A stretch of DNA of 61,675 nt from Kangiellaceae bacterium. Its GTDB lineage: Bacteria; Pseudomonadota; Gammaproteobacteria; Enterobacterales; Kangiellaceae. The translations under genes were made by a program, and so were the position numbers. Shown piece after piece: positions 1 through 24,566 of the stretch (within the stretch, counting starts at the first letter, position 1; each line of letters begins with the position of its first letter). The notes beneath the pieces were generated by a model. It had not been told where the DNA came from. It saw nothing but the letters and a program-made list of their open reading frames with translations, and did not search any database. The stretch spans positions 1-61,675 of the forward strand of contig JAPHTP010000022.1 in the NCBI GenBank assembly GCA_026196875.1, in the 5' to 3' direction.

Positions 1-1066
1 GCTCGTTAAATAATTCCACTAAGGTCTTCGGCTCACCGAAGTCTCGCTTGGTGTCATTAAAAGCTAACAGTTGTTGCTGCTCTGCCTCACTTAAATAATC
101 CAGTCGACCAATTTCTGTTTCCGGCTCCGCGACGATGGCTTCGCATAAAGCGATAAAATGACTCGCCATTCGATCAATAGTATTAGACCGATAAAGCTCA
201 GAGTTGTATTCAATTTGTCCTCTCAAGCCTTTAGCTTCTTCTCTCAATTCTAAAGTAACATCGAGGTTACTGACTTCACTTTCGAGCGGATACTGCTGAA
301 TGTTTTCACCCATTTCTACCGAAGCATTGTGAAGCACCATCATTATCTGATACAACGGGTGAACAGTCTTATTTCGGTGGGGCTGGATCAGATCTGCAAC
401 TTGTCTAAATGGGGTATCTCGGTTTTCATATGCTTCAAAACAGGTTTCCTGTACCTTTTTCAAAACATCAACAAAAGCATCATTACTCTGGACACTACTT
501 CTCAGTGCTAACCGATTGAAAAACGCTTTGGTTAGACTTTGAGCTTCACCGCAACTATGATTGGCAACAATTGCACCGACACAAACATCCTCTTGTCCCG
601 TATAGCGCTTTAACAATATTTTTAATACGGCTAAACAAACCATATAAAGTGAACACTCATTCATTTCAGCTAAAGACTTTAATTGTTGAGCTAGCTCACT
701 TTCAATGAGGAAACTATACGTTTCCGATGTCATTAACCGCCCTGCGGGCCGTGGAAAGTCTGTGGGCATATCCAGTGTCTCTGATAAGCCATCTAACTTG
801 TTTTGCCAATAATCTAATCGTTTTCCTATCCTTGTGATTTCTTCCTTATTCGCATTTGTGTCGCCTAAACTTTCTTCTTTTGAGCCCTGACTAAGCACTA
901 AATTACTTGTCAAGTCTTCAGCTAGCTGAGAAGCATTTTCAGTCAACCACTTGAGAAGTTCTTGCGGCAGTTCAGATTCGAGATCGCTCTCTCTAATGAC
1001 ACCGTTTTCTAATAGGAACTCAGTTTTTTCCAGACAAACTTTATGTAGCAATGATGAAGCAATCAT
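1..1066 (-). CDS. NRPS, N-terminal part: half condensation domain then adenylation domain (runs off window)
   Basis: The frame is open from the ATG at 1066 to the window edge (355 codons seen). The first ~75 residues are a linker. Then comes the C-terminal half of a condensation domain, starting at a YWQNKL segment followed by a PTDFPRP motif and ending near an EYNSELY segment. An adenylation-domain start (FNDTKRDFGEP, then LVELFNE) follows at the edge. The N-terminal condensation half, which carries the HHxxxDG catalytic motif, is absent. It is not in the gene before either, because that gene fills the upstream DNA with KS and carrier domains. The start overlaps the previous stop as ATGA (1063-1066), which implies translational coupling. 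The half-domain probably serves as a structural platform for the A domain rather than as a catalyst. Substrate specificity cannot be read because the A-domain core lies outside. Confidence 0.85.
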   Translation of the reverse strand, partial: MIASSLLHKVCLEKTEFLLENGVIRESDLESELPQELLKWLTENASQLAEDLTSNLVLSQGSKEESLGDTNANKEEITRIGKRLDYWQNKLDGLSETLDMPTDFPRPAGRLMTSETYSFLIESELAQQLKSLAEMNECSLYMVCLAVLKILLKRYTGQEDVCVGAIVANHSCGEAQSLTKAFFNRLALRSSVQSNDAFVDVLKKVQETCFEAYENRDTPFRQVADLIQPHRNKTVHPLYQIMMVLHNASVEMGENIQQYPLESEVSNLDVTLELREEAKGLRGQIEYNSELYRSNTIDRMASHFIALCEAIVAEPETEIGRLDYLSEAEQQQLLAFNDTKRDFGEPKTLVELFNE

Positions 1067-3816
1067 AGTGAACCTTCTTCAAATTCACCCAAGTCAGCAT
1101 CTTCAAACTCAGTGGTTAGTTCTTGCTTGTAAAGGTATGCATTAATAACCTCTGCAGTGTCGGCAACAGTATTTACGTCAAAGAACACTTTAAGAGGAAA
1201 GTTAGTATCAAGCTCCTTGCGTAAGATAGAGACAACTTGCATAGCTAATATTGAGTCTCCCCCTAACTCGATAAATCCATCATTTATGCTTATATTCTCA
1301 GCCTTTACATCCAATACTTCTGCCCAAGACCTGATCAATACCTTTTCGACGTCATTTCTCGGTGCGACATATTCTTTGCTTTTTTCAATAATTTTTGTTG
1401 TTGCTAACTTACTCTCTGGATTACTACTCTCCTTACTAGGTTCAGCATGAATTTCTTTTGTATTAACAGTTTTTAGATCTAGCCAATATTCTTTATCAGA
1501 AAAAGGATAGCCTGGAAGGGAAACTTTGTTAGCTCGTTTTTCCATCCATATTTTTTCCCACGGAACCTGAGCACCACATATCCACTGCTCGGCGATCTCG
1601 GCCCACTGAGATGAAAGGAGGCTCTTCTCTAAACCGGAATCATCTTCGTTTGATACACTGACTCTATTAGAATCTTGGTCTAAGATTGACAGGTCACCAT
1701 AGTAAATTCGTTGTTTCTGTAACGACTTAGAGGCAAGTGTTTTTGCACCGCTTAACGTTTTAAGTTTCTCCAGTAATTCTTCAACGGATTCGACAACAAT
1801 TGCTAAGCGATATGCTAACTCTTCTCTCCCTGTTTGCAGTGTATAAATTAAGTCAATAAACGATAAATTTGATTCCGTAGCGAGGAATTCAATATAGGAC
1901 TTTACATAAGCTTTCAGTTGAGTGATATTCTTGGCCGATAGAACAAAGAGATGTTTTTCGTTAATAGTATCAGATTCATCTCGGATTCTACTCATCAAAT
2001 CATCTTGGTATTCCTCAAGCAAGATATGAAGATTCACACCACTATCAGCAAATGAATTAACGCCTGCTCTTATTCTAGTTGAGGCATCACTACGGATATT
2101 TTCAAATAAAATTGTTTCATCAGCGAAGTAAAGAGGATGTGTCAAATCCCCAATATCTATAAACTCGTTTACTTTATTTTTAGTTATTGTCGCAGGGAAG
2201 CGCTTATTGTAGAGAGAAAGCGCTACTTTGATTACGCTGGCAATTCCACTCGCAGGCTCTAGGTGTCCAATGTTACCTTTCAAGCTCCCCAGACCGCAAT
2301 GCTTTCTACTTTGAGTAGACTTATCAAAAACGCCTTTAATACCTTCGAATTCAAATGAATCTGCCCACTTGGAAGCATATCCGTCGAGTTCGATATAACT
2401 GATATCTTCTGGTTTTATGTCTGCCTTTTCATAGCATCCGGTAATCACGTTAGTTAAAGATTCATATTTTACATCTGATAACGAGTTAGACTTTCCTCTG
2501 TTATTTTGATGGCAAGACTTGACCACGCTATAAATTCTATCTTGATCATGAATTGCGTCCTCTAATCGCTTTAATACCACTACGGCAACGCCTTCTCCTC
2601 TCGTAAATCCATCGGCAGCGTCATCGAATACAGCACATTTTCCCGTTGGTGAAAGCAGTCCATATTGGGATTCACTCACATAGTCATCAGCAAATAGGTT
2701 TAAGGAAACACCGCAAGCCACCGCCAAATCACTCTCTTTATTTAACAGAGAATAATAAGCACTGCTGATCGCGATTGCTGAAGAAGCACAGTTAATATTA
2801 ATTGCTTCACTTGGGCCACAAAAGTCGTAAAGAAATGATATTCTATTTGCAAAGTAGTAAGTTTGACTGGCAGAACCAAAGTGAAGGGAGCGCGAAACCG
2901 CTTCCTGGTTTTTTCTTAGAAAATGTTCGTACTCAGCGTACTCGTAACCGACGAAGACGCCGGTGTTAGAACCTGCAAATTTTGAAACATCTAGTCCGGC
3001 ATCCTGAAATGCATTGTAGACTTCCTGATAAAGGAGTCGTTCTTGTGGATCGATCAAATTTACATCATCAGAGGGTATACCAAAAAAATCGGGATCAAAG
3101 GATTTGACGTTTTCAATGAGCGCCCCCCATTTAGATATCGTCTTATTAGCGGCACCATCCTTATCATAAAATAACTCTGTATCCCATCGTGATTTTGGGA
3201 TCTCTCGAATACTATTTTTCTTATCAATTAGATTATTCCAAAACTCTCGATGATTGCCAGCTTCCGGAAACTTACATGCTATCCCAACAATGGCGACCTC
3301 ACTTTGCTTACTTCTAGCACTAGCCTCGTTTTCTTTTAAGCTAGACAAATTATAATGAGCAGCCAACTCATCAGAATAACCTTTAACTAAATGCTCAACT
3401 AAATCTTCTTTGGAAGAAAAACTCTTCCTTTGTATATCTATCGAGTAGGTTTTGCTAAGAAAGCTTGAAACTTTGTCCAGATCAAAGCTGGCTTTGTTTT
3501 CCTGAACAGAAATTTCTTCGCTAGCCTTCGTATTAAATTTGCTATTAGTATCGGGGAATGCTTCCATATCGAAGTAGTTTTCTTCAATATGCTCGACCAA
3601 TTCCCTAATTGAACTTAAGTTCATAAATTGCGCCGGCGTAACTGAAATATTCAGTTTTTTAGATACTTTGCTGATTAGGTTCATTGCCGCAATAGAGTCG
3701 ACTCCGAAGCTTGAAAACTCAGCATCAATATCCAGCTTTTCAGGAGGAATTTTAAGTATTTCTTCAATAATTTGAGTAATACTTTCAAGTACACTAATTC
3801 TGGAAACATTTTGCAT
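1063..3816 (-). CDS. ACP-KS0-PCP bridging protein (non-elongating ketosynthase)
   Basis: This 917-residue protein links PKS to NRPS. Domains in order are an ACP at about residues 5-75 (Ser near 40 in GVDSIAAMN), a ketosynthase at about 173-600 with its flanking subdomain, and a PCP at about 815-885 (LGGDSILAMQ). The KS keeps the nucleophile Cys343 (NCASSA) and the GHLE histidine. The HGTGT motif is replaced by DGYAS, so the first catalytic histidine is Asp478. That is the usual mark of a condensation-incompetent KS0, which passes the chain on without elongating it. The N-terminal ACP completes the module whose KS ends the preceding giant protein; only one base separates that stop from this ATG. 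The next gene overlaps this one by four bases. The expected path is chain from KS to ACP, transfer by KS0 to the PCP, and then the NRPS. Confidence 0.9.
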   Translation of the reverse strand: MQNVSRISVLESITQIIEEILKIPPEKLDIDAEFSSFGVDSIAAMNLISKVSKKLNISVTPAQFMNLSSIRELVEHIEENYFDMEAFPDTNSKFNTKASEEISVQENKASFDLDKVSSFLSKTYSIDIQRKSFSSKEDLVEHLVKGYSDELAAHYNLSSLKENEASARSKQSEVAIVGIACKFPEAGNHREFWNNLIDKKNSIREIPKSRWDTELFYDKDGAANKTISKWGALIENVKSFDPDFFGIPSDDVNLIDPQERLLYQEVYNAFQDAGLDVSKFAGSNTGVFVGYEYAEYEHFLRKNQEAVSRSLHFGSASQTYYFANRISFLYDFCGPSEAININCASSAIAISSAYYSLLNKESDLAVACGVSLNLFADDYVSESQYGLLSPTGKCAVFDDAADGFTRGEGVAVVVLKRLEDAIHDQDRIYSVVKSCHQNNRGKSNSLSDVKYESLTNVITGCYEKADIKPEDISYIELDGYASKWADSFEFEGIKGVFDKSTQSRKHCGLGSLKGNIGHLEPASGIASVIKVALSLYNKRFPATITKNKVNEFIDIGDLTHPLYFADETILFENIRSDASTRIRAGVNSFADSGVNLHILLEEYQDDLMSRIRDESDTINEKHLFVLSAKNITQLKAYVKSYIEFLATESNLSFIDLIYTLQTGREELAYRLAIVVESVEELLEKLKTLSGAKTLASKSLQKQRIYYGDLSILDQDSNRVSVSNEDDSGLEKSLLSSQWAEIAEQWICGAQVPWEKIWMEKRANKVSLPGYPFSDKEYWLDLKTVNTKEIHAEPSKESSNPESKLATTKIIEKSKEYVAPRNDVEKVLIRSWAEVLDVKAENISINDGFIELGGDSILAMQVVSILRKELDTNFPLKVFFDVNTVADTAEVINAYLYKQELTTEFEDADLGEFEEGSL

Positions 3817-3817
3817 G

Positions 3818-6800
3818 CTATTCTGCCTCTTCCAAAAATCGAGTTAAATCAGTACTAAGGAGAGCTCTTAATTCCTGCAAACGGTCTTTGCTTTGATTTG
3901 AATTAGAATTTACCGGCGCATTGTTTCGCTGAATATTATTGCTCGAAATATTTGTTTGTGAGCTATCAAACCAGTATCTATCTCTTAGAAATGGATAAGT
4001 TGGAATACTAATCCTGCGCGGCTTTAACTCGCCATAAAGCTTGTCCCAATCAATGTCGAGCCCCTTGACCCACATATCAGAAAGGCTTGAAAGCTTATTG
4101 CTTTTCATCAGTTTCTCAACCAATGCTTGTTTAATATCTTCGTCTTTACTTATTAAACTAATGCTTTCTTTGTCATCCTTTATTGAGCCTTGACATATAC
4201 CTTCACCGCTTTTTTGTTCACTAATAAACCGTTCTATTCGTTGAATTAGCTGTTCTGTTGAGTTTGCAAGAAAACTCACTCGGTATTCCATCGGTTCTCT
4301 TCCAACTTGCAATGTATAGGCTAATGAATCCAGTTCTATCGAATTCGACACACCAAGTTTTTCGACAAGGTAACTGCGTAGCTCTATTGCTTTTTGACGA
4401 AGTTGCTCAACTGATTTAGCTGAAAGCGGGAATATGAACTCCGAAGCTTTTTCGTTGGTAATTAAAGAACGCTCCTGGTTTAAAGACGGTTGGAACTCTT
4501 CCAATATAAGGTGGGCATTAGCTCCTCCGAAACTAAATGAGCTAACACCAGCTCTTCTAGGCAACTCTCGTTCGTCGTCTCCTACTAATGGTTCCCACTT
4601 CTGGGTCTTACCGTGGATATAGAAAGGACTATTATCGAGTCTTATATGCGGATTAAGTTCTTCAAAATGAATATTGCCTGGGATTGTTTTATGCTTCATC
4701 GCTAACAGCACTTTGATAACACCGGCAATCCCAGCTGCCGTTTCTAAATGACCAATATTAGTTTTGACCGAACCTATTCCGCAGAATGATTCTTTTAGTT
4801 CTCCCTGGCTATCTCGCTTTTTGATCTCTATAAAAGCTTTCTTGAGTGCATTAATCTCCACAGGATCACCCAGAGGCGTACCAGTTCCATGAGCCTCGAT
4901 ATAGCTTACGGTGTTAGGGTCGACTTTAGCTTTACTGTAAACGTCAATAAGCAACTCTGCTTGTGCATTAGGATTCGGCGCTGTCAGTGAAGTCGCATGA
5001 CCGCCATGATTGACCCCGGTACCTCTTACAATACCGTAAATATGGTTACCATCTTTGAGTGCTTGTTGCTGTGTCTTGAGAAATATAGCCCCGGCCCCTT
5101 CTCCTCGAACATAACCGTTAGCGCGCTTATCAAAAGTTTTACATCGACCGTCTGTCGCGAGCATACCTGCATTTCCAAAAGCAAGGTATAGTCCGGGACT
5201 AAGCAACACGTTTACTCCTCCGGCAATCGCCATATCACAGCTACCACTTTGTATCGCTTCCACCGCCCTATGTACTGCGACTAAAGAGCTTGAGCAAGCA
5301 GTTTCAATTGGCTCACTAGGTCCATGTAGATCAAGAAAGAATGAAATTCGGTTAGTTAATATTGAGTGAGTATTTCCCGTTGACGCGTAAGCCACAGCGT
5401 CAACATTACTTTCGCGCATTAGATCTAGATAATCTCGGCCGCCGACTCCGACAAACAAGCCAGTTTTAGTACCGGCCAAATCAGACGCTTTATGACCAGA
5501 ATCTTCAATCGTGTGCCAAACTGTTTCAAGGAATATCCTTTGCTGCGGATCCATTAACTCTGCTTCCATCGGAGAAATCCCAAAGAAGAATGGGTCAAAT
5601 TTATCTACGTCTTGCATAAATCCGCCCCATTTAGAATTGGTCTTGTTTTTCTCCTCTAATGGATCCCCGTCATAGGCTTTCCAATCCCACCTGTCAGGTG
5701 GAATTTCCGAGATTAGATCTTTCTCTGCTTTTAGATTTAACCAAAACTCTTCAGCATTTTCGGATTGTGGCATAACACAACTGAGACCAACGATTGCAAT
5801 GGGAAAACTTGCTGATAAATCGTTTGAGCTTCTGAAATCTAATATCGATAAATCTGCTTCCCTAGTTGCGCCAATGTTGTTTACAAACTGGTCACCAGGT
5901 TTATGCTCTTCTAAATAATTCGGTTCCGTGTGTTCATCCAAACCAGAAACTGTTGATGAAGCGACATTCTCAACCAGGTCGTCAGAGAAGTACCCTGCTA
6001 ATTGCTCTTGGTAGTTTTCCCCCAGATATTCGCTGAGTGAATTCAAAGTTGGATATTCAAAGAAGATAGCTGGTGTTAAATCAAGTTCATAACGCCCGTT
6101 CATTTCTCCAAACAACTTGCCCAAGCTAATTGAATCAAGTCCGTATTCACTCATATCAATATCTGGTGAAAGTTGCTCTTCATCGAGCATCAAAGTGTCG
6201 GCGATCATTCTCAGTAAGTCTTGCTTAACGAGTTTTCCGATTTGCTGAGAACTTGTTTGCATGCTCGCTCGTTCCTTAGGAAGTGACTCGCTTGTCTTAT
6301 CTAAGTTTTGAGGTAATTTTTCAATCATTACTGATTCACTAACCACTTTAGGTGGTTGAGGTAAGTCCACTTCAGCTACTCCGAGCATTCTTCTGATCTT
6401 ATTCAGCTCCCCTTGCATTACCATAAATTGACTTTTTCCACTAACCACCCCGTTAACAAACGATTCCAGCCCAATCTCAGTTTCAAGCGTATGAATTCCC
6501 ATCATATCTTTGAGGAACGCTTCCATTTGTTGCGTAATACCCATACCGCCATCTTTCCACAGCGGCCAATTAATAGAGATTGCATTTCCTTGACGTTCTT
6601 GTTGAGCTTTAAGCTGATTGCGTCTAACAGCAAAATTGTCCATAAAGCTATTCGCATACGCGTAGTCAGTCTGACCGGCATTACCAGTAATTGAAGTCAT
6701 TGATGAAAATAGACAAAAGAAATCTAGCTCTTCCGACTTTGTTGCTTGATCGATATTTACGGTTCCAAAAACCTTAGAACCAAATACAGAATCGAGTTCT

Positions 6801-9800
6801 TCGAGTGTTTTATTTGCTATCAACGAATCCTGCAATATTCCAGCGCTATGAATAATTCCGTTGATAGATGTGAATTTCTTCTTTGCTGTGGCCACGAGTT
6901 GGTTAACATCATTGAGCTTCGATACGTCCGCTCTTACATACAATATTTCTGCTCCGTTAGATTCAATTTCCTTAATGCGCTTTTTATGACTATCAGACAA
7001 TATTGAACGTCCCGACAGCACAAGCTTAACTCGAGCTTGCTTAGCTAGATATCGAGCGAAGATTAATCCTAACCCTCCTAACCCTCCGGTTATTATGTAA
7101 CAACCATTTTCTTTAAGTGGAAGATTGGAAACAGTAGGTATTTCAATTTCGTTTACCTCTCGGATATAACGCTTATCACCAATGTAGCGTACTTCAAAAT
7201 CGTCTCTTGTTCCTTCCTGTAATTCCGAAATAGCGCTTTCAATAATTTCTGTTGGATTAATGACACTTGAGAAATCATTATCGAAAAGTTCAATAGACTT
7301 GAAGTTGTATCTTGAGTTCTCCAAAGTCAAACACTTACCAAAACTCGCCATTGCAGAGTGCTGAGGTTGTAGGTTCTCATTATCATTGGCAAAAACATAA
7401 AGTATTTTTATCTTTTTTAACGCAGTAACTTCTGGTTCCAGCAACTTATTTAAGTCATCGAGCTTTTTCTGAGATTCCATTAATGCTCTACTAAGATACA
7501 GCAAAGATACCACTCCGTTTCTCAGACCTTTTTTCAACCTGTTTTTGTTACTATCAAAGTCGATTTCAGACCAGAGATGAAGAATATTCTGAATTGGGAT
7601 CTTTCTTTCAATTAAGGATTCTATTAACTTAATATAATCTTTAGGTTCCCCTGGATTAATTTGATATACATCTTCAGACAGTTGCTGATACTTAGCCGCC
7701 ATGCCAACTAAAATAACATTTGAGGATTTCGAACCATTCCGGCTCAAATATTCTTTTAGTGAAGAGCTTACCAACTCTGTTTGATCGAAGACAATAAAGC
7801 CTTCTTTATTACTAGGAGAGTCTTCGGTAGATTGGGTTGACGACTCCTTCCAAACACTCTCGAAGTATGCTTGCTTGCGGTTAGTTTTGAAAATTCCTGT
7901 AGATAAGCTTTGATTACTCGCTTGGGTTGCAGATTGAAAAAATGGGCGAGACACAAAATCCTTCATTATGACTAGAACTTTTCCATTTTTATCCAAAAGA
8001 TGGAAGTTAGCTTTCAAAAGATTAACGTCTTCTTTTAATTCCTCTACCCCCCAAGTTGCGTAGCCATAATGTAGATCTTTAAGTGGATTGAGTATTACAA
8101 CCTCACCTACAGAAACAGGCAAACTCAATGGAAGTTCCATTCCAACTTTTTTCAATAGCCCCATTGCTGTATGCAGGGAGCCATCCATTAGCGCAGGATG
8201 AAGCCAAAACTCCTCAGCACCAGCGTTCAAATTATCAGGCAGTTTAAGAATTGATAGCGCTTCTTGTTTCGTCGCACAGATCTTTTGTACGATTTGAAAG
8301 CTCCTACCCAGTTTCAGTCCCTGTGAGTTTAAGTATGGATAAAGCTCTTCGGAACTAATCACCGTTTCGGAACATCTATGCTTGATACCCTCTATATCTA
8401 ACTTATACGGAACTTGTTGTTGATAAGAAAAACTAAGCTCTCCGGTACAATGTGTTATTGGCTTATCATTAGTCGGCGTTTTGACTTCAAACATCACACC
8501 TTGATGGTTCGCCTTTACAGAAGTCTCAATTTTTCGCATATCTTTGGTAAAGACAATTGGTCTCTCCCACTTCAAGTTTCTTATCACTCTAACAGGGGTC
8601 TCAGCAGCAAGTTCGCCAGCCACTCTAGCCATCTCCATATAGGCAACACCAGGTAAGATCTTTTGCGTTTGAACAATGTGGTCTGCGAAGTAAAATTCTT
8701 CACCGGAAAACTGGGTAACAAACTTTTGTTCTTTTAAGGTAGAGGCATTTTCGTGAACGAGATGATGAATTGGCGAAATATCTGAATCTCCCACCTTATT
8801 GGATTGTGGTTGGCCTTGTTCAACACCGGGCTTAGAAATCCAGTATCGATCTCTAGCGAACGGATAAGTGGGTAAAGATATTCGTCTTACTTTTTTGTCA
8901 GTGTAAAGTTCCCCCCAATTGACTATACTTCCGTTAACCCATTCCTCTGCGAGCTGTTCAAGTTGTTCTTCCAGAGCTGCGCCAACCAACTTTAAACTGC
9001 TCTGCTTTTCTTTACCTTTTGTTTTTAAGGTATTTCCTCGATACAAATTATCGATATTTATTTCATTATCTAGATATCGGGTTAACTTGTGCTTTAAGTC
9101 ATCAATGCTTGCCACAACAATTGCAAGCCTATCTCGCATTTCATCTCGCCCTACCTGAAGAGTATAGGCAATGTCTGCTAATGCTTCTTCTCTTGCATTT
9201 AAATGCGATAGTAATACAACTGCATAGTCTTTTAATCTCTCTTCATTCTTAGCGGATAAAACGATCAACGCTGCAGTCTCGTCCAGGCTTTCTTTCTCGG
9301 ATATTGTTGGCAGATATTCTTCAAAAACGATATGAGCATTGGCTCCACCAAAGCCAAATGAACTTACTCCAGATCGTCTCGGTAAACTCTCTCCCTTTTC
9401 GTTTGTAACCGAATTCCATGGTACAGTCTTGTCAACAATGTAAAACGGACTACCCTCAAGCTTGATGTATGGGTTGAGTTCTTCAAAATTGATCGATGCC
9501 GGTATTTTTTTATGTTTTATAGCAAGCAAGACCTTGAATATACCTGCAATTCCTGCGGCTGTTTCTAAATGCCCGATGTTGGTCTTTACTGATCCCAAAC
9601 CACAATGGGGCTCTTCAGCAGGCGTCCTATTGTATTTTTTGTACATTTCGGAAAACGCTTTTTGTAGTGCCTGAATTTCTATGGGATCACCTAAGGCGGT
9701 TCCTGTTCCATGGCATTCAATATAACCGATTGAAGATGGATCTATATCCGCTTTCTCGTAAGCATCTAATAAGAGATTAGTTTGTGCATTCGGATTAGGC

Positions 9801-12800
9801 GCAGTTAATGTAGTAACCTTTCCACCGTGATTCTCAGACGTAGCTTTAATCAACGCATAGATGTGATTTCCGTCCTCTTCGGCTTTTGCCAAAGGTTTTA
9901 TAAAAATCGCTCCTGATCCCTCGCCTCTGACGTATCCATTTGCTTGCTTGTCAAATGTCTTACATTTTCCATCGTTACTAAGCATTCCCGCAATGCCGAA
10001 TGAAATGTAAACCGATGGAGAAACCATGACCTGAACTCCACCTGCAATCGCCATCTCACTACTTCCAGTATGAATTGACTCAACAGCACGGTGAAGGGCT
10101 ACAAGTGAACTAGAACATGCAGTGTCGAAGGGCGCACTTGGTCCGGTAATATCGAGTAAGAAAGAAATCCTGTTGACTAATACTGAATGTGTATTACCGG
10201 TAGAAGTGTACGCGTCGATCCCAATATTTTGTCGAGTAATCAAATCAGAGTAATCATTGGTAGCTACCCCTACAAACAACCCGGTTTTGGTGCCAGCCAG
10301 ATCAGAAACTTTTTGCCCCGAGTCCTCAACTGCCTTCCAAACAGTTTCTAGAAATATTCGTTGTTGTGGGTCCATCATTATTGCTTCGCGAGGCGATATT
10401 CCGAAAAACAGCGGATCAAATTTATCCACCTCTTTCATAAAACCACCCCATTTCGAGTTGGTTTTATTCTCTTCTTTCAGCGGGTCGCCATGATAATCTT
10501 CCCAAGCCCACCTATCTTCAGGAATAACACGAATCATGTTTTCTGCATTTTCTAAATTATTCCAAAATTCATTTAAATCATCGGATTCAGGCATCACCCC
10601 ATGCATGCCAACAACAGCAATTGGCTGTTCTTTAAAGCGATTCTCCGGTGAGAACTTAACACTGTGAGGCCCGCCAGTGTGTTGCTCCTTTGAGTTCGCA
10701 GATGACTTCCAGCCTTTATCCAGGACCAGTTTACTTTCTGAGGGAGCACTCTGTTTTTGAGCAACAGATTCATTGGCCGGCAAATCATTTTGTCCCCCTG
10801 CTGCCTCGCCAAAGTGAAACCTATTTGTTAGTTGCTGGTGCTCTACTGCCAGGTGTTTTGCGATCTCTTTTATAGACGGATACTCAAAAAACAAGACAGG
10901 CGTAACATCTAAGCCGTATTTTTCGTTAATTAAATTTGCATAAGTGGTCAATCCTATTGAGTCGAAACCCAGGTCGAGCAGTATCTTGTCTAAATCCATA
11001 TCCTCAGGATCTAACTTTAAGAAATCCATAACCATTTGTGCGAGTTCGTCCTGAACCATTAGTGCGAGATCGCTACTTGCACCATCCTGACTTTCAACTT
11101 GAGCATTCGCTTGTTGAGTCGTAACCGCTACTTCATTTGATTCGCCAAGTCCCCATGCCTTCTCTATTTTCTGTTTGTCACCCTCCACGATAATGAACTG
11201 AGTCTTTGCACCGTTGAGACCTGTTTCGAATGCCTTCACACCGGTTTCTGTTCTCAGAGGATGAATTCCTAAGTTCTTTTTAAAGAACAGCTCTGTCTGC
11301 TCGTCTAACTTCATTCCGCCGTCAGCCCATAGTGACCAATTTATGCTTAACGACTTACCGTGTCTTTTGCCAGCTATCTGTAGTCTCTCACGCTGTTTGA
11401 CGAAGGAATCCATATAGTGATTAGCAAAACTATAGTCACATTGACCAGCATTTCCTCCAACAGCGGCCATTGAAGAAAATGTTACAAAGAAATCCAGTTT
11501 TAAGTGTTTCGTCGCCTCATCCAAGAAGTGGGTTCCATAAACTTTCGGACCGAAAACAGCCTCCATTTCAGGTTTTGTTTTATTCTTAATATATGAATCT
11601 CTTAGAACACCGGCGCTATGTAATATTCCGTTTAACCCACCAAACTTGGATTGACTCTGTTCAATTAGACGCTTGACTTCAGAAGGGTTTGAAATATCGC
11701 ATTCAAGATAGATTGCATCTCCTCCTAGTTGCTTAATCCGCGTTAACTTGTCTTCAGTATTTTTTGACACAGCGGAACGACCAACTAAGATGAGTTTAGA
11801 CTGATGCTCTTTCGCTAAATGTTCAGCAAATATAAATCCTAGTCCTCCGGCACCGCCGGTAATTAAATAAGTACCCTGCTGCTTTATACCAGCATTTGCT
11901 GTACGAAGCGTTTCTGACTCAGCAATATCAATTTCTTCAATATCTCTTACATACCTTTTCTTATCCTTATAGCGAACTACCGTCGATGGGACAGAATTAA
12001 TATTTGACTCTAGAATCAAGATTTGCGCTAACCTATCAAAATCCCTCTTCTCTGACTCGAATTCAATAACTTTGCTCAACACTTTGGAGTTTTCTATCTC
12101 TAGTGTTTTGGTAAAGCCGGCGATAGCTTCTTGATGTGGCAGTAAATTATTTTTTCGGTGTGAGAAGAAGTAATTTAGAGAAATTTTGTTAACTAGCTTT
12201 TGTTCAGCCAATGATTTAGACAATGAAAGTAATGCATAAACACCAGTTTCCAGGCCATCGGAAAGTTTTTCCTCAAGATTATCGTCAGTCGTCTCCTCTA
12301 TATCTAAAGTGCCATCAAAACATAAGTTCTCTAGATCCCAGCCCCTAGAACTTAAAGAAGTGAAGAGTAAATTGTAGTCTTCTACCCTTTGCGGATTAAT
12401 TAAAAAACGACTTTCATCTAGCTGCTTAAACTCCTTACCAAAATTCGCGAAAACTAACCGCCCGTTTGGCTTCCCAAGACTTTCCAACAGCTGTTGGCAT
12501 GCTTGATACAATGCCTCGTTATCAGTAAAAACCAGTATATTTTTTCCAGCTTCAATACTTTCAATAGCCGGTATTGAAGTCTCCTCCCAACTAAAGGAAT
12601 AGTACAGTTCTGAAAACTCAATATCGCTAGCTTTTTCTGAAGGCTTTTCGTGTACGTCAGTTAAGGGAACGCCGATAGACTCCTTAATCTTAACAAGCAC
12701 TTTACCTTCACGATTTAAGACAAATACATTAGCCTTCGATACTTTTGAGTTAGGGTCTTCAATTTCCTTCACATAGGTATAACACTCATGCTCTAGAGGA

Positions 12801-15800
12801 GCCAAGATTTCTACTTCACCAATAGAATAGGGAACGAACATTTCTTCTTGTTCTTGACCTATCTTCGCAGCCATTGCCGCCTGCAACGAGCCGTCAATTA
12901 GTGATGGATGCAAAACAAAATCATCAATCTTACTATCAGCTATATCAGGTAGTTTTAATTCTCCAAGGACTTCATGTTCATTGTTATAAACATCCTGTAA
13001 AACTTGAAAGCTAGGGCCAAGATTTAGGCCTAAAGACTTAAATAATGGATACGCTTCTTTGCCATCAATAACTTTTTCGACCCGGCTTTTAATATTCTCT
13101 ATATCGACAAATTCAGGCTCGGCTTGTAAATCTTCATCATCGGCATAAACGATTCTTCCTTGTGAATAAAGTTGTTTCTTACCTTCTTTACCTTCACTAA
13201 AAACCTCAAAGTTAACTGTATCGCCGTTGGGTTTAAGATCAATGAGAGTTTCCGTTGTTCTATTTGACTCAACAGTTAAAGGGCTAACCCATACTATATT
13301 TTGAATTTTTTGCACTTTTTGACCAATTGCTAGCTCACCTGACTTACGTGCAAGGTCTAAATATGCGACTCCCGGTAAAGTTTGAATATCAGATACTAGA
13401 TGATCATAAATAAAAAATTCTTTTTCATTAAAGTTCTTTTTAAAGACCTGTCTTTCAAAAGTTGACTGATTTGTATCAATTAGTGGGTGAAGCGATCTTG
13501 TTGATTGGTTAGCAATTTTGCCTGAGTCAAATTGCTTTACTACCCAATGCCGCTTATCTGCAAATGGATAGGTAGGAAGCGATATCTTTGAAGCTTTCTG
13601 GTGCTTAAATCCACTCCAGTCATTAAGCAGACCTTCAACCCATAGCTGCGCCAACTTTCTTGTATCACGACTATGTGAAAGCATTTCTACAAACTCTTGC
13701 TTTTCCTTTTTGTTTAGTAGCTTAGTTAATCCCTCAGAGTTTTTAACATGACCGGCAATAATATTTTCATCTGAGGCTTTGTCTACAAAGCTTTCTAATC
13801 GAGTCACGAGCTCTTCAATTGATGAGGCAACCACTGCAACACGATGTTCAAATGACTTTCGACCTACTTGCAACGTATAGGCCATATCGCTGAAATTGCT
13901 CTGACAGCCTTTACGAATATCTCTATCTTTCAGATAAGCAATTAAACGGCGAGCATATTCTAATAATTGAACTTCTGTTTTTGCAGATAGCGGAAATACA
14001 GTTTCTCGAGCCTGAAATGAATCAACCTCATCAGATATATCTTGGTTTAGTTTATCTGCGTTTACGTATTCCTCTACAATTAGATGGGCGTTAGCTCCAC
14101 CCGCGCCGAAAGAGCTTACCCCTGCTCTCAGTGGGAAAGTCTCGTCATCAATTGATTTTGGTTCCCATTCGATCAGTTCTTGTTGTACATAAAACGGAGA
14201 GTTTTCGAAATCGATATGTTCATTAAGTTTTGTTGAATGTAACGAAGGTACCAATTGCCGATTCTTCATTTGGAGAAGAACTTTAAATAATCCAACTATT
14301 CCAGCCGCAGCTTCCAGGTGGCCAATATTGCTCTTTATAGAACCAATAGCGCATGTTTGATTGGGAATATCATATTTGCTAAACGCTTTCGACAAGCCCG
14401 AAACTTCGATCGGATCGCCTAACTCTGTACCAGTTCCATGTGTTTCAATATAACCAATTGTACGAGCGTCGACCTTTGCCTGTTTTAGGGCATCGTTGAT
14501 TAAATCTGCTTGTGCGTTAGGGTTAGGGACAGTATATCCGCTATTTCTGCCGCCATGATTAATTGTAGCTCCCTTAATTACACCATGGATGTTATCACCT
14601 GCTTTAATGGCTTCTTGAAGCGGCTTTAACAAGACTGCAGCAATTCCTTCGCCAGCAACATATCCGTCCGCGCCTGTTCCAAAACTTTTACACAAACCAT
14701 CTTTAGATAATGCGCCCAAAGACTCATTTATGTCGTGCTTAGATTGGTGTATATCTAGATTAACCCCGCCGGCAATTGCGCTAGAACATTCCCCTTTTAT
14801 GATTGCATCACATGCCAAATAAATTGCTGTTAGACTTGAGGAACATGCCGTATCAATTGTTAAACTAGGGCCTGAGAAATTAAAGAAATAAGAAATCCTA
14901 TTCGCAATACTCCATAAAAATGAGTTAGGGTTTGCATCCTCTCCGACGATTTTACTTTCAGCGCCGATCATTTGGTACATTGCCCAGACAGCACCAACAT
15001 AGACTCCTATGTTTCGAGACGATTTCTCATCAACAATTGTCTCAGGCGTATATCCTGCGTCTTCAATAGTTTCCCAAGCAACTTCTAGAAAGAGTCTCTC
15101 CTGAGGGTCAAGCATTTCCGCTTCCCGAGGCGAAATATTGAAGAAGAGAGAATCAAACTTGTCCAGTCCTTCTATAAACCCACCTCGATACCGCTTACTC
15201 GCTAATTTTGCAAATCGCTTTTCAAGTCGTTCACTAGAAATATCTTCAATACAATCCATTCCATCAGCTAGGTTCTTCCAAAGTTGATTAATGTTTTCTG
15301 CTCTCGGAAGCCGACCAGCCATTCCTACAACGGCTATGTCTTTCGGAGTCTCTAGTCTAGCTAAAGTTGAAGAAACCTTTGCTTCTCTCGTCCGACTTAG
15401 ACTTGCGCTAAATTTATTATCGTTTTTGGTGGGATTCTCCTCACTAGTTTCTTCAACCTTGGACTCTATACCACTTACTGACTGGCCACTCCCAACAGAT
15501 GTCAATTTCGAACTCTCTAAGCCCTCGCTATAACTTGGAGTGTTACCGGCCAAGCTCTTAGAAATATTGTGATACTTCTTTAACTTAAACTTCGCATTGA
15601 TATTTGCAAGGGCACTATTTGAGCCACCATAATTAGTTAACTCTGGAATGTTGACTCTATTGTTAAATAGTGAAATCAATTTGGAGAGAACAGTTTCAGC
15701 GTCTGATTCTTGCATTCCGACAGGTACAGCTAAGCGTACTAGCCCGTTGATTGTGCTATTTTTTTGCATTCCGACACTGTGAGCTCCTAAACGAATTCCA

Positions 15801-18460
15801 GTCTCTTGGAAAACCCATGCGATAAAAGAGTCAACCGGCAATTCAAAACCTCTAAACTCAGCTAGTTGTTTAACGTCTATCAAAACACAATGGCCACCTG
15901 AAGGCGTAACAATCGGAACGTTATTTTTAGCTAATCCAGCCGAAATACTGCGCACTAAATTCATTCGTCGAATCACACGTTTTTCAATTTGACCCGGATT
16001 ATTAAATGCCAATGCCACCAACTTTTTATCAATTACATCGAGGGCGACTCCCTCCTGACTGATAAGAGTCTGTATTTTGCTATGGAGAGCGAAATCGTTG
16101 GTTGCAATTAGGCCTCCTTTATTCACTGCAAAGTCCTTCGCTAAGCTTGCAATCACAACATCCGCATATGAGCAGAATTCATGACATACTTGCCATATAG
16201 TCTTATCTGAGTAGTCAGCGTCATGCTTAATAACAAACCTAGCATTCTCTAGTATTCTAGTTGCATCAAGAACTAAGGAAATTGAGTACTCCGCAAGAAG
16301 CGATCTCAGCTGTTTAACCTGTTTAATTGAAGTAGGTAATCCACCCGCAGCATTATCACTTAATTCGACGTATACAAATGCAATATTTTGCGCATTCCGT
16401 TCGACCTGGCTTGCCAGTGAATCCCAATCTATCCCGCCTTTAAAAATCTCAGAGGACGAAATTTCAAAGATTGCTCGACTAGGTATCTCTACTGGTTTAA
16501 AGCTATTGTCGATTAAGCTAAAAATGGCTGTAGGAAAGAGTATGTTTTGTAACACTTCTCCTTTTGATTCCCATGCTTTACAGAATACTTTTTCCGAAGT
16601 TCTTCCTGATTCTGTTAAAGAAAGGTACTCGAATGGAAATACGCTACGTAGGCTTTCTTGTGTATTGACTAACTGTTGAAGCTGACCATGATATTGACGC
16701 ATTTGCTCATCAATAAGAGGAAATTTGAGTTGCGCCCATGAATCTGTTTTTAGGTCAAACGATACTTTCTCGTGCGCCAACCTCATAGGATTAAAATAAC
16801 AATCCGCCAGTGAAGATGCCTGTATTCCATTCGCAAATTCTACTTCCGCTCGATTGCTTGTTTCATTGAGCACTTGAGGAGTCGAAATAGTTTCTAGAAC
16901 AACACTATCTTTAATCGACGTATCCTCATATTCAATCGATGCATCTTTCTCATTCTCGGCTTGCTTAACTTCCGAGTAAAACTCACTCAAATTGTGATTG
17001 TCAGCATCAGATGTCTGCTGTTTAGATGGATCAGCAATCATCATTACTAAATCCAGTACATTCTCCGGATCACTGTCTTCCTTCGACCGGCAAAGATAAA
17101 TGGTTTGAGTTAGAGGACGGAATTTGTTTTTAAACTGTAAATTGCCTTCGTCGTTAAAGATACCTTGGGCGCGCAGGCCATCCAGGATTTTATCAACCCT
17201 GGGATCTACATTCTCTGATTCCTCTAGCTTCGGCCCTAGTGTTACCCCTAGACTAAGCATATCCTGGTCTTCAGCAACTAGAGTTTTAATAATGTTTACA
17301 ATGGCATACTCTAATCCTCCCAATGGCATATCTGCAGGGTAGAATTCCAGATCCATCAGATACCCATTGAGTTCTTTTGACATTGGAGAAATGATAACTA
17401 CATTTTGAAGCGCGTCAGCGACGTATGTAAGAAAAATTCGATGTTCACTACTAAAAGTCCCAGCTAGTATTTCGTCCTTCGCAATAAATACCAATGGATT
17501 AACCATTGTCCTAGCATCGCACCACTGATCAATTGTCTCTATTATTTGCGCTGTTATATCTTCGCAGGAGCCGCATTTGAATTCTTCAGTTCTACAATCA
17601 CCGGCTTTCTCAAATTTTGAAACCTGATAACGAAGCCGCCTCATCTTCCCACCTTTTAGGCTGAAGCTTTTCAAATCTTGTACCCTCTGATTAACACTAA
17701 AGGGTGTTGATGAATACGGTTTCCCTGCAATTTCTTCTAATTCAAAATTAGTCAGAACATTAAGTTCTAGATTGTTATCCAAACAATAACTCGATAACTC
17801 TTGTGATAATTCATCAAAGTAATCTTCCGGCCCTGTATACGCATAAGCAAGGATAATATTATTGCTCCGGCTATAATTAAAATACCCTTCTTGAGAGCTC
17901 CCTATAAATATATTTGGAGCGATGTTCTTGGTCCCTCTTGATACCGAAGATTCATTTTTATATTTTTCAAAGATATCTTTTACGATAGGGCCCAGTGTTG
18001 GATGTTGCTCTATATCAGAATGTAAGGCGCGTATTGCTTTCCGAGTTTGTTTATAAACTAAGCTGTCATTGTCTGCTCTTGTCGCATGGCTACTCGCTAA
18101 ATCTATTACACTCTCAATTTGCTCGCTTGATTCGTTACGGATCGGTTTAGCGATATTAGGGCTAGCGCTATTATTGTCTTTGTCGATATCGAACATTCTT
18201 GTTAAGACCGCGCTATGCCCATTTACAAAGTACTTAGCTAAGTCATTAATGTTAAAATTCTCAAAAAGTAATGTTTTTGGTAACGAACCGAAGTCATCTT
18301 CCAACTTTTTAACTATCTTAAGTACGAAAAACGAATCTATGCCAAGCTCTGCAAACGGTGCAAAAGTATCAAAATCATGCTCACTTGAATCAGAGACTTC
18401 TCCAATTAAAGACTTTAGATAAGACTCTGTTAAATCTAATAAAAGATCGTTATCAAACAT
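3818..18460 (-). CDS. Giant trans-AT PKS: ACP-DUF2156-like-PLP lyase-KS-DH-KR-ACP-KS-DH-KR-ACP-KS
   Basis: The protein has 4880 residues and no AT domain, so malonyl loading must come from a free AT. Domains by approximate residue are: ACP 1-85 (Ser ~42 in LGIDSFF); GNAT/DUF2156-like 150-475; tryptophanase-like PLP lyase 545-935; KS1 1039-1465 (Cys1206); DH1 1655-1940; KR1 2195-2395; ACP 2470-2540 (LGFDSIG); KS2 2612-3050; DH2 3234-3500; KR2 3788-3985; ACP 4075-4145 (YGLDSIS); KS3 4219-4650, then a tail. All three KSs have Cys, the HGTGT histidine and the GHLE histidine. Both DHs have the first His and a D...Q or D...H second motif, but the usual Gly of HxxxG is Asp or Thr. Both KRs carry a VLRD/ILQD segment, as in B-type KRs. 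KS3's carrier is on the next protein. The two modules should each add an alpha,beta-unsaturated unit. The lyase-bearing N-terminus is very unusual. Confidence 0.92.
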   Translation of the reverse strand: MFDNDLLLDLTESYLKSLIGEVSDSSEHDFDTFAPFAELGIDSFFVLKIVKKLEDDFGSLPKTLLFENFNINDLAKYFVNGHSAVLTRMFDIDKDNNSASPNIAKPIRNESSEQIESVIDLASSHATRADNDSLVYKQTRKAIRALHSDIEQHPTLGPIVKDIFEKYKNESSVSRGTKNIAPNIFIGSSQEGYFNYSRSNNIILAYAYTGPEDYFDELSQELSSYCLDNNLELNVLTNFELEEIAGKPYSSTPFSVNQRVQDLKSFSLKGGKMRRLRYQVSKFEKAGDCRTEEFKCGSCEDITAQIIETIDQWCDARTMVNPLVFIAKDEILAGTFSSEHRIFLTYVADALQNVVIISPMSKELNGYLMDLEFYPADMPLGGLEYAIVNIIKTLVAEDQDMLSLGVTLGPKLEESENVDPRVDKILDGLRAQGIFNDEGNLQFKNKFRPLTQTIYLCRSKEDSDPENVLDLVMMIADPSKQQTSDADNHNLSEFYSEVKQAENEKDASIEYEDTSIKDSVVLETISTPQVLNETSNRAEVEFANGIQASSLADCYFNPMRLAHEKVSFDLKTDSWAQLKFPLIDEQMRQYHGQLQQLVNTQESLRSVFPFEYLSLTESGRTSEKVFCKAWESKGEVLQNILFPTAIFSLIDNSFKPVEIPSRAIFEISSSEIFKGGIDWDSLASQVERNAQNIAFVYVELSDNAAGGLPTSIKQVKQLRSLLAEYSISLVLDATRILENARFVIKHDADYSDKTIWQVCHEFCSYADVVIASLAKDFAVNKGGLIATNDFALHSKIQTLISQEGVALDVIDKKLVALAFNNPGQIEKRVIRRMNLVRSISAGLAKNNVPIVTPSGGHCVLIDVKQLAEFRGFELPVDSFIAWVFQETGIRLGAHSVGMQKNSTINGLVRLAVPVGMQESDAETVLSKLISLFNNRVNIPELTNYGGSNSALANINAKFKLKKYHNISKSLAGNTPSYSEGLESSKLTSVGSGQSVSGIESKVEETSEENPTKNDNKFSASLSRTREAKVSSTLARLETPKDIAVVGMAGRLPRAENINQLWKNLADGMDCIEDISSERLEKRFAKLASKRYRGGFIEGLDKFDSLFFNISPREAEMLDPQERLFLEVAWETIEDAGYTPETIVDEKSSRNIGVYVGAVWAMYQMIGAESKIVGEDANPNSFLWSIANRISYFFNFSGPSLTIDTACSSSLTAIYLACDAIIKGECSSAIAGGVNLDIHQSKHDINESLGALSKDGLCKSFGTGADGYVAGEGIAAVLLKPLQEAIKAGDNIHGVIKGATINHGGRNSGYTVPNPNAQADLINDALKQAKVDARTIGYIETHGTGTELGDPIEVSGLSKAFSKYDIPNQTCAIGSIKSNIGHLEAAAGIVGLFKVLLQMKNRQLVPSLHSTKLNEHIDFENSPFYVQQELIEWEPKSIDDETFPLRAGVSSFGAGGANAHLIVEEYVNADKLNQDISDEVDSFQARETVFPLSAKTEVQLLEYARRLIAYLKDRDIRKGCQSNFSDMAYTLQVGRKSFEHRVAVVASSIEELVTRLESFVDKASDENIIAGHVKNSEGLTKLLNKKEKQEFVEMLSHSRDTRKLAQLWVEGLLNDWSGFKHQKASKISLPTYPFADKRHWVVKQFDSGKIANQSTRSLHPLIDTNQSTFERQVFKKNFNEKEFFIYDHLVSDIQTLPGVAYLDLARKSGELAIGQKVQKIQNIVWVSPLTVESNRTTETLIDLKPNGDTVNFEVFSEGKEGKKQLYSQGRIVYADDEDLQAEPEFVDIENIKSRVEKVIDGKEAYPLFKSLGLNLGPSFQVLQDVYNNEHEVLGELKLPDIADSKIDDFVLHPSLIDGSLQAAMAAKIGQEQEEMFVPYSIGEVEILAPLEHECYTYVKEIEDPNSKVSKANVFVLNREGKVLVKIKESIGVPLTDVHEKPSEKASDIEFSELYYSFSWEETSIPAIESIEAGKNILVFTDNEALYQACQQLLESLGKPNGRLVFANFGKEFKQLDESRFLINPQRVEDYNLLFTSLSSRGWDLENLCFDGTLDIEETTDDNLEEKLSDGLETGVYALLSLSKSLAEQKLVNKISLNYFFSHRKNNLLPHQEAIAGFTKTLEIENSKVLSKVIEFESEKRDFDRLAQILILESNINSVPSTVVRYKDKKRYVRDIEEIDIAESETLRTANAGIKQQGTYLITGGAGGLGFIFAEHLAKEHQSKLILVGRSAVSKNTEDKLTRIKQLGGDAIYLECDISNPSEVKRLIEQSQSKFGGLNGILHSAGVLRDSYIKNKTKPEMEAVFGPKVYGTHFLDEATKHLKLDFFVTFSSMAAVGGNAGQCDYSFANHYMDSFVKQRERLQIAGKRHGKSLSINWSLWADGGMKLDEQTELFFKKNLGIHPLRTETGVKAFETGLNGAKTQFIIVEGDKQKIEKAWGLGESNEVAVTTQQANAQVESQDGASSDLALMVQDELAQMVMDFLKLDPEDMDLDKILLDLGFDSIGLTTYANLINEKYGLDVTPVLFFEYPSIKEIAKHLAVEHQQLTNRFHFGEAAGGQNDLPANESVAQKQSAPSESKLVLDKGWKSSANSKEQHTGGPHSVKFSPENRFKEQPIAVVGMHGVMPESDDLNEFWNNLENAENMIRVIPEDRWAWEDYHGDPLKEENKTNSKWGGFMKEVDKFDPLFFGISPREAIMMDPQQRIFLETVWKAVEDSGQKVSDLAGTKTGLFVGVATNDYSDLITRQNIGIDAYTSTGNTHSVLVNRISFLLDITGPSAPFDTACSSSLVALHRAVESIHTGSSEMAIAGGVQVMVSPSVYISFGIAGMLSNDGKCKTFDKQANGYVRGEGSGAIFIKPLAKAEEDGNHIYALIKATSENHGGKVTTLTAPNPNAQTNLLLDAYEKADIDPSSIGYIECHGTGTALGDPIEIQALQKAFSEMYKKYNRTPAEEPHCGLGSVKTNIGHLETAAGIAGIFKVLLAIKHKKIPASINFEELNPYIKLEGSPFYIVDKTVPWNSVTNEKGESLPRRSGVSSFGFGGANAHIVFEEYLPTISEKESLDETAALIVLSAKNEERLKDYAVVLLSHLNAREEALADIAYTLQVGRDEMRDRLAIVVASIDDLKHKLTRYLDNEINIDNLYRGNTLKTKGKEKQSSLKLVGAALEEQLEQLAEEWVNGSIVNWGELYTDKKVRRISLPTYPFARDRYWISKPGVEQGQPQSNKVGDSDISPIHHLVHENASTLKEQKFVTQFSGEEFYFADHIVQTQKILPGVAYMEMARVAGELAAETPVRVIRNLKWERPIVFTKDMRKIETSVKANHQGVMFEVKTPTNDKPITHCTGELSFSYQQQVPYKLDIEGIKHRCSETVISSEELYPYLNSQGLKLGRSFQIVQKICATKQEALSILKLPDNLNAGAEEFWLHPALMDGSLHTAMGLLKKVGMELPLSLPVSVGEVVILNPLKDLHYGYATWGVEELKEDVNLLKANFHLLDKNGKVLVIMKDFVSRPFFQSATQASNQSLSTGIFKTNRKQAYFESVWKESSTQSTEDSPSNKEGFIVFDQTELVSSSLKEYLSRNGSKSSNVILVGMAAKYQQLSEDVYQINPGEPKDYIKLIESLIERKIPIQNILHLWSEIDFDSNKNRLKKGLRNGVVSLLYLSRALMESQKKLDDLNKLLEPEVTALKKIKILYVFANDNENLQPQHSAMASFGKCLTLENSRYNFKSIELFDNDFSSVINPTEIIESAISELQEGTRDDFEVRYIGDKRYIREVNEIEIPTVSNLPLKENGCYIITGGLGGLGLIFARYLAKQARVKLVLSGRSILSDSHKKRIKEIESNGAEILYVRADVSKLNDVNQLVATAKKKFTSINGIIHSAGILQDSLIANKTLEELDSVFGSKVFGTVNIDQATKSEELDFFCLFSSMTSITGNAGQTDYAYANSFMDNFAVRRNQLKAQQERQGNAISINWPLWKDGGMGITQQMEAFLKDMMGIHTLETEIGLESFVNGVVSGKSQFMVMQGELNKIRRMLGVAEVDLPQPPKVVSESVMIEKLPQNLDKTSESLPKERASMQTSSQQIGKLVKQDLLRMIADTLMLDEEQLSPDIDMSEYGLDSISLGKLFGEMNGRYELDLTPAIFFEYPTLNSLSEYLGENYQEQLAGYFSDDLVENVASSTVSGLDEHTEPNYLEEHKPGDQFVNNIGATREADLSILDFRSSNDLSASFPIAIVGLSCVMPQSENAEEFWLNLKAEKDLISEIPPDRWDWKAYDGDPLEEKNKTNSKWGGFMQDVDKFDPFFFGISPMEAELMDPQQRIFLETVWHTIEDSGHKASDLAGTKTGLFVGVGGRDYLDLMRESNVDAVAYASTGNTHSILTNRISFFLDLHGPSEPIETACSSSLVAVHRAVEAIQSGSCDMAIAGGVNVLLSPGLYLAFGNAGMLATDGRCKTFDKRANGYVRGEGAGAIFLKTQQQALKDGNHIYGIVRGTGVNHGGHATSLTAPNPNAQAELLIDVYSKAKVDPNTVSYIEAHGTGTPLGDPVEINALKKAFIEIKKRDSQGELKESFCGIGSVKTNIGHLETAAGIAGVIKVLLAMKHKTIPGNIHFEELNPHIRLDNSPFYIHGKTQKWEPLVGDDERELPRRAGVSSFSFGGANAHLILEEFQPSLNQERSLITNEKASEFIFPLSAKSVEQLRQKAIELRSYLVEKLGVSNSIELDSLAYTLQVGREPMEYRVSFLANSTEQLIQRIERFISEQKSGEGICQGSIKDDKESISLISKDEDIKQALVEKLMKSNKLSSLSDMWVKGLDIDWDKLYGELKPRRISIPTYPFLRDRYWFDSSQTNISSNNIQRNNAPVNSNSNQSKDRLQELRALLSTDLTRFLEEAE
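15656..16828 (-). other. Domain: tryptophanase / tyrosine phenol-lyase-like PLP beta-eliminating lyase in giant PKS
   Basis: Residues ~545-935 follow the tryptophanase fold-type I pattern throughout. SGRTSE corresponds to QGRGAE (phosphate loop). DNAAGGLPTS corresponds to N.AGGQPVS. DATRILENARF corresponds to D.AR..ENAYF (Asp to the pyridine nitrogen, Arg to O3'). SLAKDFAVNKGG corresponds to the Schiff-base loop, with Lys775 as the expected PLP lysine. GGHCVLIDV and the C-terminal VRLAVP correspond to GGHAVFLD and VRLTIP; the family's carboxylate-binding Arg lies in the latter. The domain is somewhat shorter than the free enzymes (~390 against ~460-470 residues). All cofactor residues I can locate are present, so activity is expected. 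The substrate is unknown; beta-elimination of a cysteine-type conjugate is the favoured guess. Confidence 0.85.
17036..18013 (-). other. Domain: DUF2156 / LPG_synthase_C-like (GNAT-fold) region in giant PKS
   Basis: This stretch (residues ~150-475) lies between the first ACP and the PLP lyase and is not a standard PKS domain. Two segments resemble the C-terminal aminoacyl-transfer domain of MprF-type phosphatidylglycerol lysyltransferases. One is LKGGKMRRLRYQVSKFEKAG, matching the family's LKGKK..LR...NR.EREG pattern. The other is MDLEFYPADMPLGGLEYAI with a later LSLGV, matching the MDLMRR.PDAPNG..D.LI...LG pattern. Those enzymes transfer an aminoacyl group from tRNA. In a PKS the domain may have been reused for acyl or amino-acid transfer onto the ACP-bound chain. 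The match is by eye from short motifs. Confidence 0.55.
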
Positions 18461-23281: not shown

Positions 23282-23312
23282 AATTATTGCCTCTTAATAG
23301 TTATTTAAAGTA

Positions 23313-24563: not shown

Positions 24564-24566
24564 CAA

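Follow-up and report, generated by a model that had tools for sequence, protein, structure and literature searches.

An ACP-DUF-SH-KS unit in a Kangiellaceae polyketide synthase as a probable sulfur-installing station

What does a pyridoxal phosphate (PLP)-dependent lyase do inside the reading frame of a polyketide synthase (PKS), directly ahead of a ketosynthase (KS)? This question is raised by a 61,675-nucleotide stretch of DNA from a Kangiellaceae bacterium (assembly GCA_026196875.1, contig JAPHTP010000022.1), hereafter the window, which encodes on its minus strand a 4880-amino-acid PKS with the unit order acyl carrier protein (ACP)-DUF-SH-KS. We consider it likely that this unit is a sulfur-installing station of trans-acyltransferase (trans-AT)-type PKSs, in which an upstream chain would pass to the ACP, DUF would add cysteine or thiocysteine, SH would cleave the conjugate and the KS would extend the product. 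The station comprises the following features.

18206..18436, minus strand: N-terminal ACP (residues 9-85, motif GIDSFFVLK), the proposed cognate carrier of DUF-SH; detected with our own ACP hidden Markov model (HMM) and one of 48 N-terminal ACPs adjacent to DUF that form a starred set
17027..17950, minus strand: DUF (residues 171-478) with the DUF2156 / LPG_synthase_C fold, the proposed (thio)cysteine-attaching domain
15656..16825, minus strand: SH domain (residues 546-935), a PLP-dependent C-S lyase of the thiocysteine type according to profile, tree, residue and model comparison
16136..16138, minus strand: codon of Lys775, the predicted PLP Schiff-base lysine (K in 84/84 SH rows)
14084..15349, minus strand: KS immediately following SH (residues 1038-1459, with Cys-His-His retained), a member of a clade of 57 post-SH KSs (support 99)

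The initial annotation had described the embedded region as a complete tryptophanase-like lyase. A PLP lyase between ACP-DUF and KS in this minus-strand frame is indeed real, with DUF immediately before it on the same polypeptide, and both sequence and model give it the tyrosine phenol-lyase (TPL)-type PLP fold with a Schiff-base lysine. The tryptophanase identity did not hold. The window domain scores below the curated cut-off of every matched model (PRK13238.1, the best, 176.8 versus 285 bits; tyr_phenol_ly, 131.9 versus 720.7; TnaApg, 124.4 versus 750; tnaA, 101.6 versus 825.8), and its nearest solved relative, at 31% identity, is the SH domain of the guangnanmycin thiocysteine lyase (9cen).

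A DUF-SH alignment scan yielded 121 confirmed relatives, 80 of them listed and drawn from Bacteroidota, Pseudomonadota, Acidobacteriota, Actinomycetota, Chloroflexota and Myxococcota; a scan of viral contigs produced 105 pattern matches, none of them a relative. Our SH tree and layout counts comprise 84 SH rows, covering 78 of the 80 listed relatives, the window, genome G139 and four plasmid records, with L069 (broken frame) and L107 (contig end) left out for their short SH stretches. Alongside these stand 14 rows of stand-alone lyases, in which one gene appears twice (as L002 and L021). AF2 alignments took in the window and 46 of 81 loci for SH, and the window and 61 of 81 for DUF.

In the SH tree, a quick tree built without bootstrap, the window groups with SH domains and apart from stand-alone lyases, and a starred branch of 1.51 separates 13 of the 14 stand-alone rows from SH. 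The stand-alone protein of L011 sits on the SH side, on a long branch that leaves its placement unsure. Lys775, Asn703, Asp732, Arg735 and Arg909, the last of which we take to be the equivalent of TPL's carboxylate-binding arginine, are each invariant in 84/84 SH rows, so the active site around Lys775 does not appear collapsed. The Lys775 equivalent is also a lysine in all 14 stand-alone rows. Tryptophanase and TPL share the fold and the PLP lysine with the window domain but fall in a separate clade, and SH is further marked by residues rare among the stand-alone lyases, among them W575 (84/84), F777 (83/84), C858 (82/84), H894 (83/84) and G915 (84/84). Given the sub-threshold scores and the separating branch, it is very improbable that the window domain is a tryptophanase or TPL acting on Trp, Tyr or another beta-substituent. 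In the excerpted text of Milano 2013 (PMC3870968), the TPL residues that protonate the leaving group are absent from embedded domains, which fits a different leaving group. The further proposal of the initial annotation, that the domain cleaves a C-S bond of an amino-acid conjugate carried on the N-terminal ACP and leaves a heteroatom on the chain, is supported by homology, through the grouping with SH and the kept residues.

As a separate observation on L011 (G172; L011:13-2634), its 402-amino-acid SH-like lyase directly follows an EgtD-type histidine methyltransferase (PF10017) and the end of an FGE-sulfatase (EgtB-like). This setting makes it a candidate for a non-canonical C-S lyase in ergothioneine biosynthesis; at a threshold of E<=1e-40, G172 is the sole genome with a match out of 76 examined around it.

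Which sulfur group would the SH domain leave behind? Three assayed SH domains prefer thiocysteine substrates 50- to 106-fold in the excerpted text of Meng 2021 (PMC8479088), and the main active-site residues are common to rows with an N-terminal cassette and rows followed by a thioesterase (TE), both of which argue for a thiocysteine lyase leaving -SSH. The same source reports weak cysteine lyase activity for LnmJ-SH, and N-terminal and TE rows differ at several mostly fixed sites (577, Q in 48/52 versus E in 25/25; 608, F in 48 versus L in 25; 638, Q in 51 versus H in 21; 714, H in 43 versus N in 20). It is accordingly possible, though we lean against it, that the window SH is instead a cysteine lyase leaving -SH.

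The initial annotation also regarded a lyase preceding a KS as new. This proved not to be so: the excerpted Table 2 of Milano 2013 (PMC3870968) assigns Kordia algicida A9ECY5 the layout CP-DUF2156-PLP3-KS-KR-CP-KS and includes a similar Lysobacter protein, F8TUA6; excerpts of Meng 2021 (PMC8479088) describe 109 clusters and three non-leinamycin families of DUF-SH PKSs; and the annotated non-leinamycin DUF-SH modules in excerpts of Phillips 2024 (PMC7618002) have one ACP and no TE. The layout is the same in A9ECY5, in F8TUA6 (Lysobacter sp. ATCC 53042) and in the window, and the Kordia locus (L049) shares with the window a starred set of 27 SH rows. We see no essential difference from these proteins, except that the window protein is longer and its next genes lead to a condensation domain. 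It is thus a member of a known, little-studied family whose ACP-DUF-SH-KS layout is widespread and already published. Three testable points give the finding its worth, namely the resemblance of DUF to tRNA transferases in fold, the assignment of the ACP and the elongation of chains after sulfur insertion.

Layouts were read from mechanical open reading frames (ORFs) and our own HMMs, with antisense ORFs and frame breaks blurring some genes in GC-rich loci. The 84 SH rows divide into 48 with an N-terminal DUF-SH-KS, 25 with SH-TE, 4 with a contig-cut DUF-SH-KS, 4 internal and followed by a KS, 2 internal and followed by a condensation (C) domain, and 1 cut after SH; a KS comes after SH in 56 of the 84. 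These layouts cluster on the SH tree (8 changes, against a minimum of 6 and a shuffled mean of 44.8). The TE rows come together in a single set (support 94), and the 48 N-terminal rows together with one contig-cut row form a 49-row set (support 93). By comparison, GnmT-SH (structure 9cen), LnmJ-SH and WsmR-SH have the fold, the DUF-SH pairing and a like neighbouring ACP in common with the window but belong to a terminal KS-ACP-ACP-DUF-SH-TE module, whereas the window, at 34-37% identity to leinamycin-type loci over DUF-SH, has one ACP, no TE and a KS after SH, and so falls outside the leinamycin-type synthases as defined by that terminal module.

Outside Actinomycetota, SH-TE cases occur in L097 (Pseudomonas), in L088 (Chloroflexota) and in G139, a genome of the window's order, where a leinamycin-type line (...KS-ACP-ACP-ACP-DUF-SH-TE) is accompanied by LnmK- and HMGS-like genes (G139:C32:72358-95839, L028-L030).

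The KS that follows SH may be a dedicated partner. In a FastTree phylogeny of 174 KSs, all 57 that stand directly after SH (53 N-terminal or contig-cut, 4 internal) form one clade with support 99 and no other KS within it. This pattern fits a KS dedicated to a sulfur-bearing chain.

The ACP beside DUF looks like part of the cassette as well, in leinamycin-type synthases too. An HMM of 45 N-terminal ACPs ranked the DUF-adjacent ACP above its tandem partner in 25/25 leinamycin-type synthases, whereas a control HMM of 67 post-SH ACPs gave the reverse ranking in all 25. Mean identity to the N-terminal ACPs is 0.301 for the leinamycin-type DUF-adjacent ACPs, compared with 0.223 for the first ACP and 0.233 for other ACPs. 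The ACP is a small gene of its own in five loci (L058, L067, L068, L071 and L074), and these score highest among the other ACPs with the N-terminal HMM. Two results tell against the assignment: the DUF-adjacent ACP leads by only 0.7 bits in G139, and the ACP tree (FastTree; 245 rows over 78 columns, too short to prove the assignment) fails to unite all DUF-adjacent ACPs, its best pure set of 53 rows holding 49 N-terminal, 4 internal and 0 leinamycin-type members. The separate ACP of L074 lies far off on a long branch. Because the tree keeps the leinamycin-type DUF-adjacent ACPs apart from the N-terminal ones, we base the assignment on HMM ranking and mean identity. We read ACP-DUF-SH as the unit that is inherited, and on this reading ACP8, the second ACP of leinamycin, would carry the sulfur. 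The comparison thus predicts that the chain sits on the second and not the first ACP during sulfur insertion, and it bears on the role of ACP8, which excerpts of Phillips 2024 (PMC7618002) speculated to be off-loading.

What might attach the sulfur? The window DUF matches PF09924 above cut-off and, over nearly its full length by profile (run on the window and 63 of 81 listed loci) and by fold, resembles the aminoacyl-tRNA-dependent transferases. It has profile, fold and a retained FK.KF motif in common with the aminoacyl-tRNA-dependent phosphatidylglycerol synthases (DUF2156, MprF/LPG_synthase_C), but identity to these transferase structures is 16-19% and the window DUF is embedded in a PKS. 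Conjugate addition has been proposed for the leinamycin DUF (Phillips 2024, PMC7618002), and what DUF does and when sulfur is inserted are stated as open questions (Meng 2021, PMC8479088; Phillips 2024, PMC7618002), in each case in the excerpted text. The fold supplies a concrete donor hypothesis, a charged tRNA. In this doubtful but testable proposal, the DUF of DUF-SH synthases, leinamycin's included, would take cysteine or cysteine persulfide from tRNA(Cys) and place its sulfur on the beta-carbon of the chain held by the ACP, after which SH would cut the amino acid off. If true, a polyketide assembly line would draw its sulfur from the tRNA pool of translation.

Combining these elements suggests a sequence of steps for the station. 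An upstream polypeptide ending in KS or in KS and dehydratase (DH), with no ACP of its own, would hand its acyl chain to the N-terminal ACP, where the chain would be, or become, an alpha,beta-unsaturated thioester. The beta-carbon would next receive cysteine or thiocysteine from DUF. SH, judged from its assayed homologues, would form an external aldimine via Lys775 and eliminate pyruvate and ammonia, with -SH or -SSH staying on the chain, which the KS of the dedicated clade would then accept and elongate. The parts of this scheme computed directly are which domains are present and in what order, which residues are kept, how the SH layouts separate in the tree, which type the DUF-adjacent ACP belongs to, that the post-SH KSs form a clade and what fold DUF has.

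Related clusters offer a view of the upstream supply. The last protein of the long line lacks a terminal ACP throughout, ending in KS-DH in Aquimarina AU58, Lysobacter and Pseudoduganella and in KS in Kordia and on contig C188 of the window's own genome; the Lysobacter gene order agrees with the long line coming first. In AU58, the KS-DH end is matched by an ACP-DUF-SH-KS-DH-ketoreductase (KR)-ACP-KS-DH protein that starts with a bare ACP and is followed by a class III aminotransferase gene and, last, an ACP-KS-ACP-TE protein; KS-DH feeding ACP-DUF-SH would yield a line with one start and one end. The same cluster holds two Aminotran_5 genes (one a NifS-like cysteine desulfurase by eye) and a C_GCAxxG redox protein (L118:14503-19404), a possible local sulfur supply. 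Contig C188 encodes ...KS-KR-ACP-KS-DH, then DH-KR-ACP-KS, then genes that by eye are MBL-fold and enoyl-CoA-hydratase-like around HMGS. Its last KS is sister to that of Kordia (support 100), and C188 is probably where the window's line has its upstream part. The feeding module holds DH and KR in 6/6 internal cassettes where both that module and something after SH can be read (L075, L081, L082, L085, L086 and, across two proteins, L103), and HMGS lies in the flank of 25/25 SH-TE loci; a DH-KR feeding module and a flanking HMGS are two routes to a Michael acceptor.

A different role for the cassette is suggested by its position. The ACP-DUF-SH gene opens its operon, often behind a NusG-type gene, the ACP is a separate small gene in five loci, and DUF has an aminoacyl-tRNA transferase fold. 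ACP-DUF-SH might then be a loading module, in which DUF places an amino acid, such as Cys taken from Cys-tRNA, on the ACP thiol and SH makes the starter with no upstream chain. We favoured this idea at first because of the upstream NusG gene, and demoted it because, in four other clusters and on C188, the KS or KS-DH that ends the long line would then be left with no ACP. Furthermore, the Lysobacter order puts the long line first, and the internal homologues come after an extension module and have post-SH KSs in the same clade. A loading function is accordingly unlikely.

Several points nevertheless weigh against a sulfur-installing station fed from upstream. The operon-opening position fits a loading module too; the link between C188 and the window is drawn solely from likeness to Kordia; and the C188 feeding KS (residue 794) looks active with no DH or KR after it, so that the acceptor would need the C188 HMGS or a non-elongating transfer. 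The same question arises in Kordia, where the last KS of the long line also looks active. Modules of this kind often contain DH and KR, which limits what the 6/6 count can say; outside those six, L107 has KS-ACP-ACP with no DH or KR before DUF and L110 has KR only, both being cut after SH. Co-inheritance of SH and KS would give an identical clade picture, so a single substrate does not follow from a single KS clade. Finally, the case for the window line is one of sequence and structure models. We still regard the sulfur-installing station as the probable function. Judging from the N-terminal and internal cassettes, elongation of the chain continues once sulfur has been inserted, which would make ACP-DUF-SH-KS a natural unit for engineering.

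A likely product can be named for some relatives. The cuniculene cluster of Aquimarina is described, in excerpts, from A. muelleri, Aq78, Aq349, EL33 and RHTr2 (PMC9323603, PMC9860996). Three of these strains, A. muelleri, Aq78 and RHTr2, correspond to loci L033, L039 and L041, each with ACP-DUF-SH-KS, so cuniculene is probably made by such a line, provided that these loci are the cuniculene cluster, as we infer.

The remaining features around the station are listed below.

3818..14083, minus strand: remainder of the 4880-amino-acid protein, DH-KR-ACP-KS-DH-KR-ACP-KS, the last KS without an ACP
1063..3816, minus strand: next protein, ACP-KS-ACP, its KS of the non-elongating type with DGYAS replacing HGTGT
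2..1066, minus strand: condensation-domain protein, truncated by the contig end
25197..25715, minus strand: NusG-type antitermination protein gene (PF02357), upstream of the operon

The NusG-like family is present in 22 of 53 loci, the window included. Where the window has its downstream ACP-KS-ACP protein, AU58 has an ACP-KS-ACP-TE protein downstream. DGYAS or DGYAT in place of HGTGT characterizes the downstream ACP-KS-ACP KS in the window (1063-3816) and in L115 (5514-9311), and also in Kordia and Lysobacter; judged by this motif, it appears to be a common non-elongating KS near the end of ACP-DUF-SH-KS lines.

No AT family is among the matches of the 4880-amino-acid protein; a discrete AT lies at the far end of the window (59927-61210) and may serve another cluster. 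Our own HMMs for HMGS and LnmK, the latter sought in the window only, found no match in the window, whose contig ends about 3.8 kb behind the DUF-SH gene; the single PF08540 (HMGS) match in the genome is on C188. A GMC oxidoreductase and an aldehyde dehydrogenase upstream of the PKS were considered as conserved partners and rejected: with HMMs seeded from the window genes, the dehydrogenase was found in 4/80 scan loci (L067, L071, L074, L079) and GMC in 0/80, a weak absence, since the GMC HMM was built on one sequence and missed the AU58 GMC gene found by Pfam.

Two further gene groups lie in the window. At 22529-24566, an ABC ATPase and a membrane-fusion protein have NCBIfam matches that include the darobactin export proteins DarD and DarC, below cut-off; the ORF list holds no permease-sized ORF adjoining them, and L066 has an adjacent MacB/FtsX permease. 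Positions 34111-61210 encode a second assembly line consisting of the discrete AT, two KS-DH-KR-ACP proteins, a protein with KS, condensation, adenylation (A) and peptidyl carrier protein (PCP) domains, and a C/A/PCP protein with a TE.
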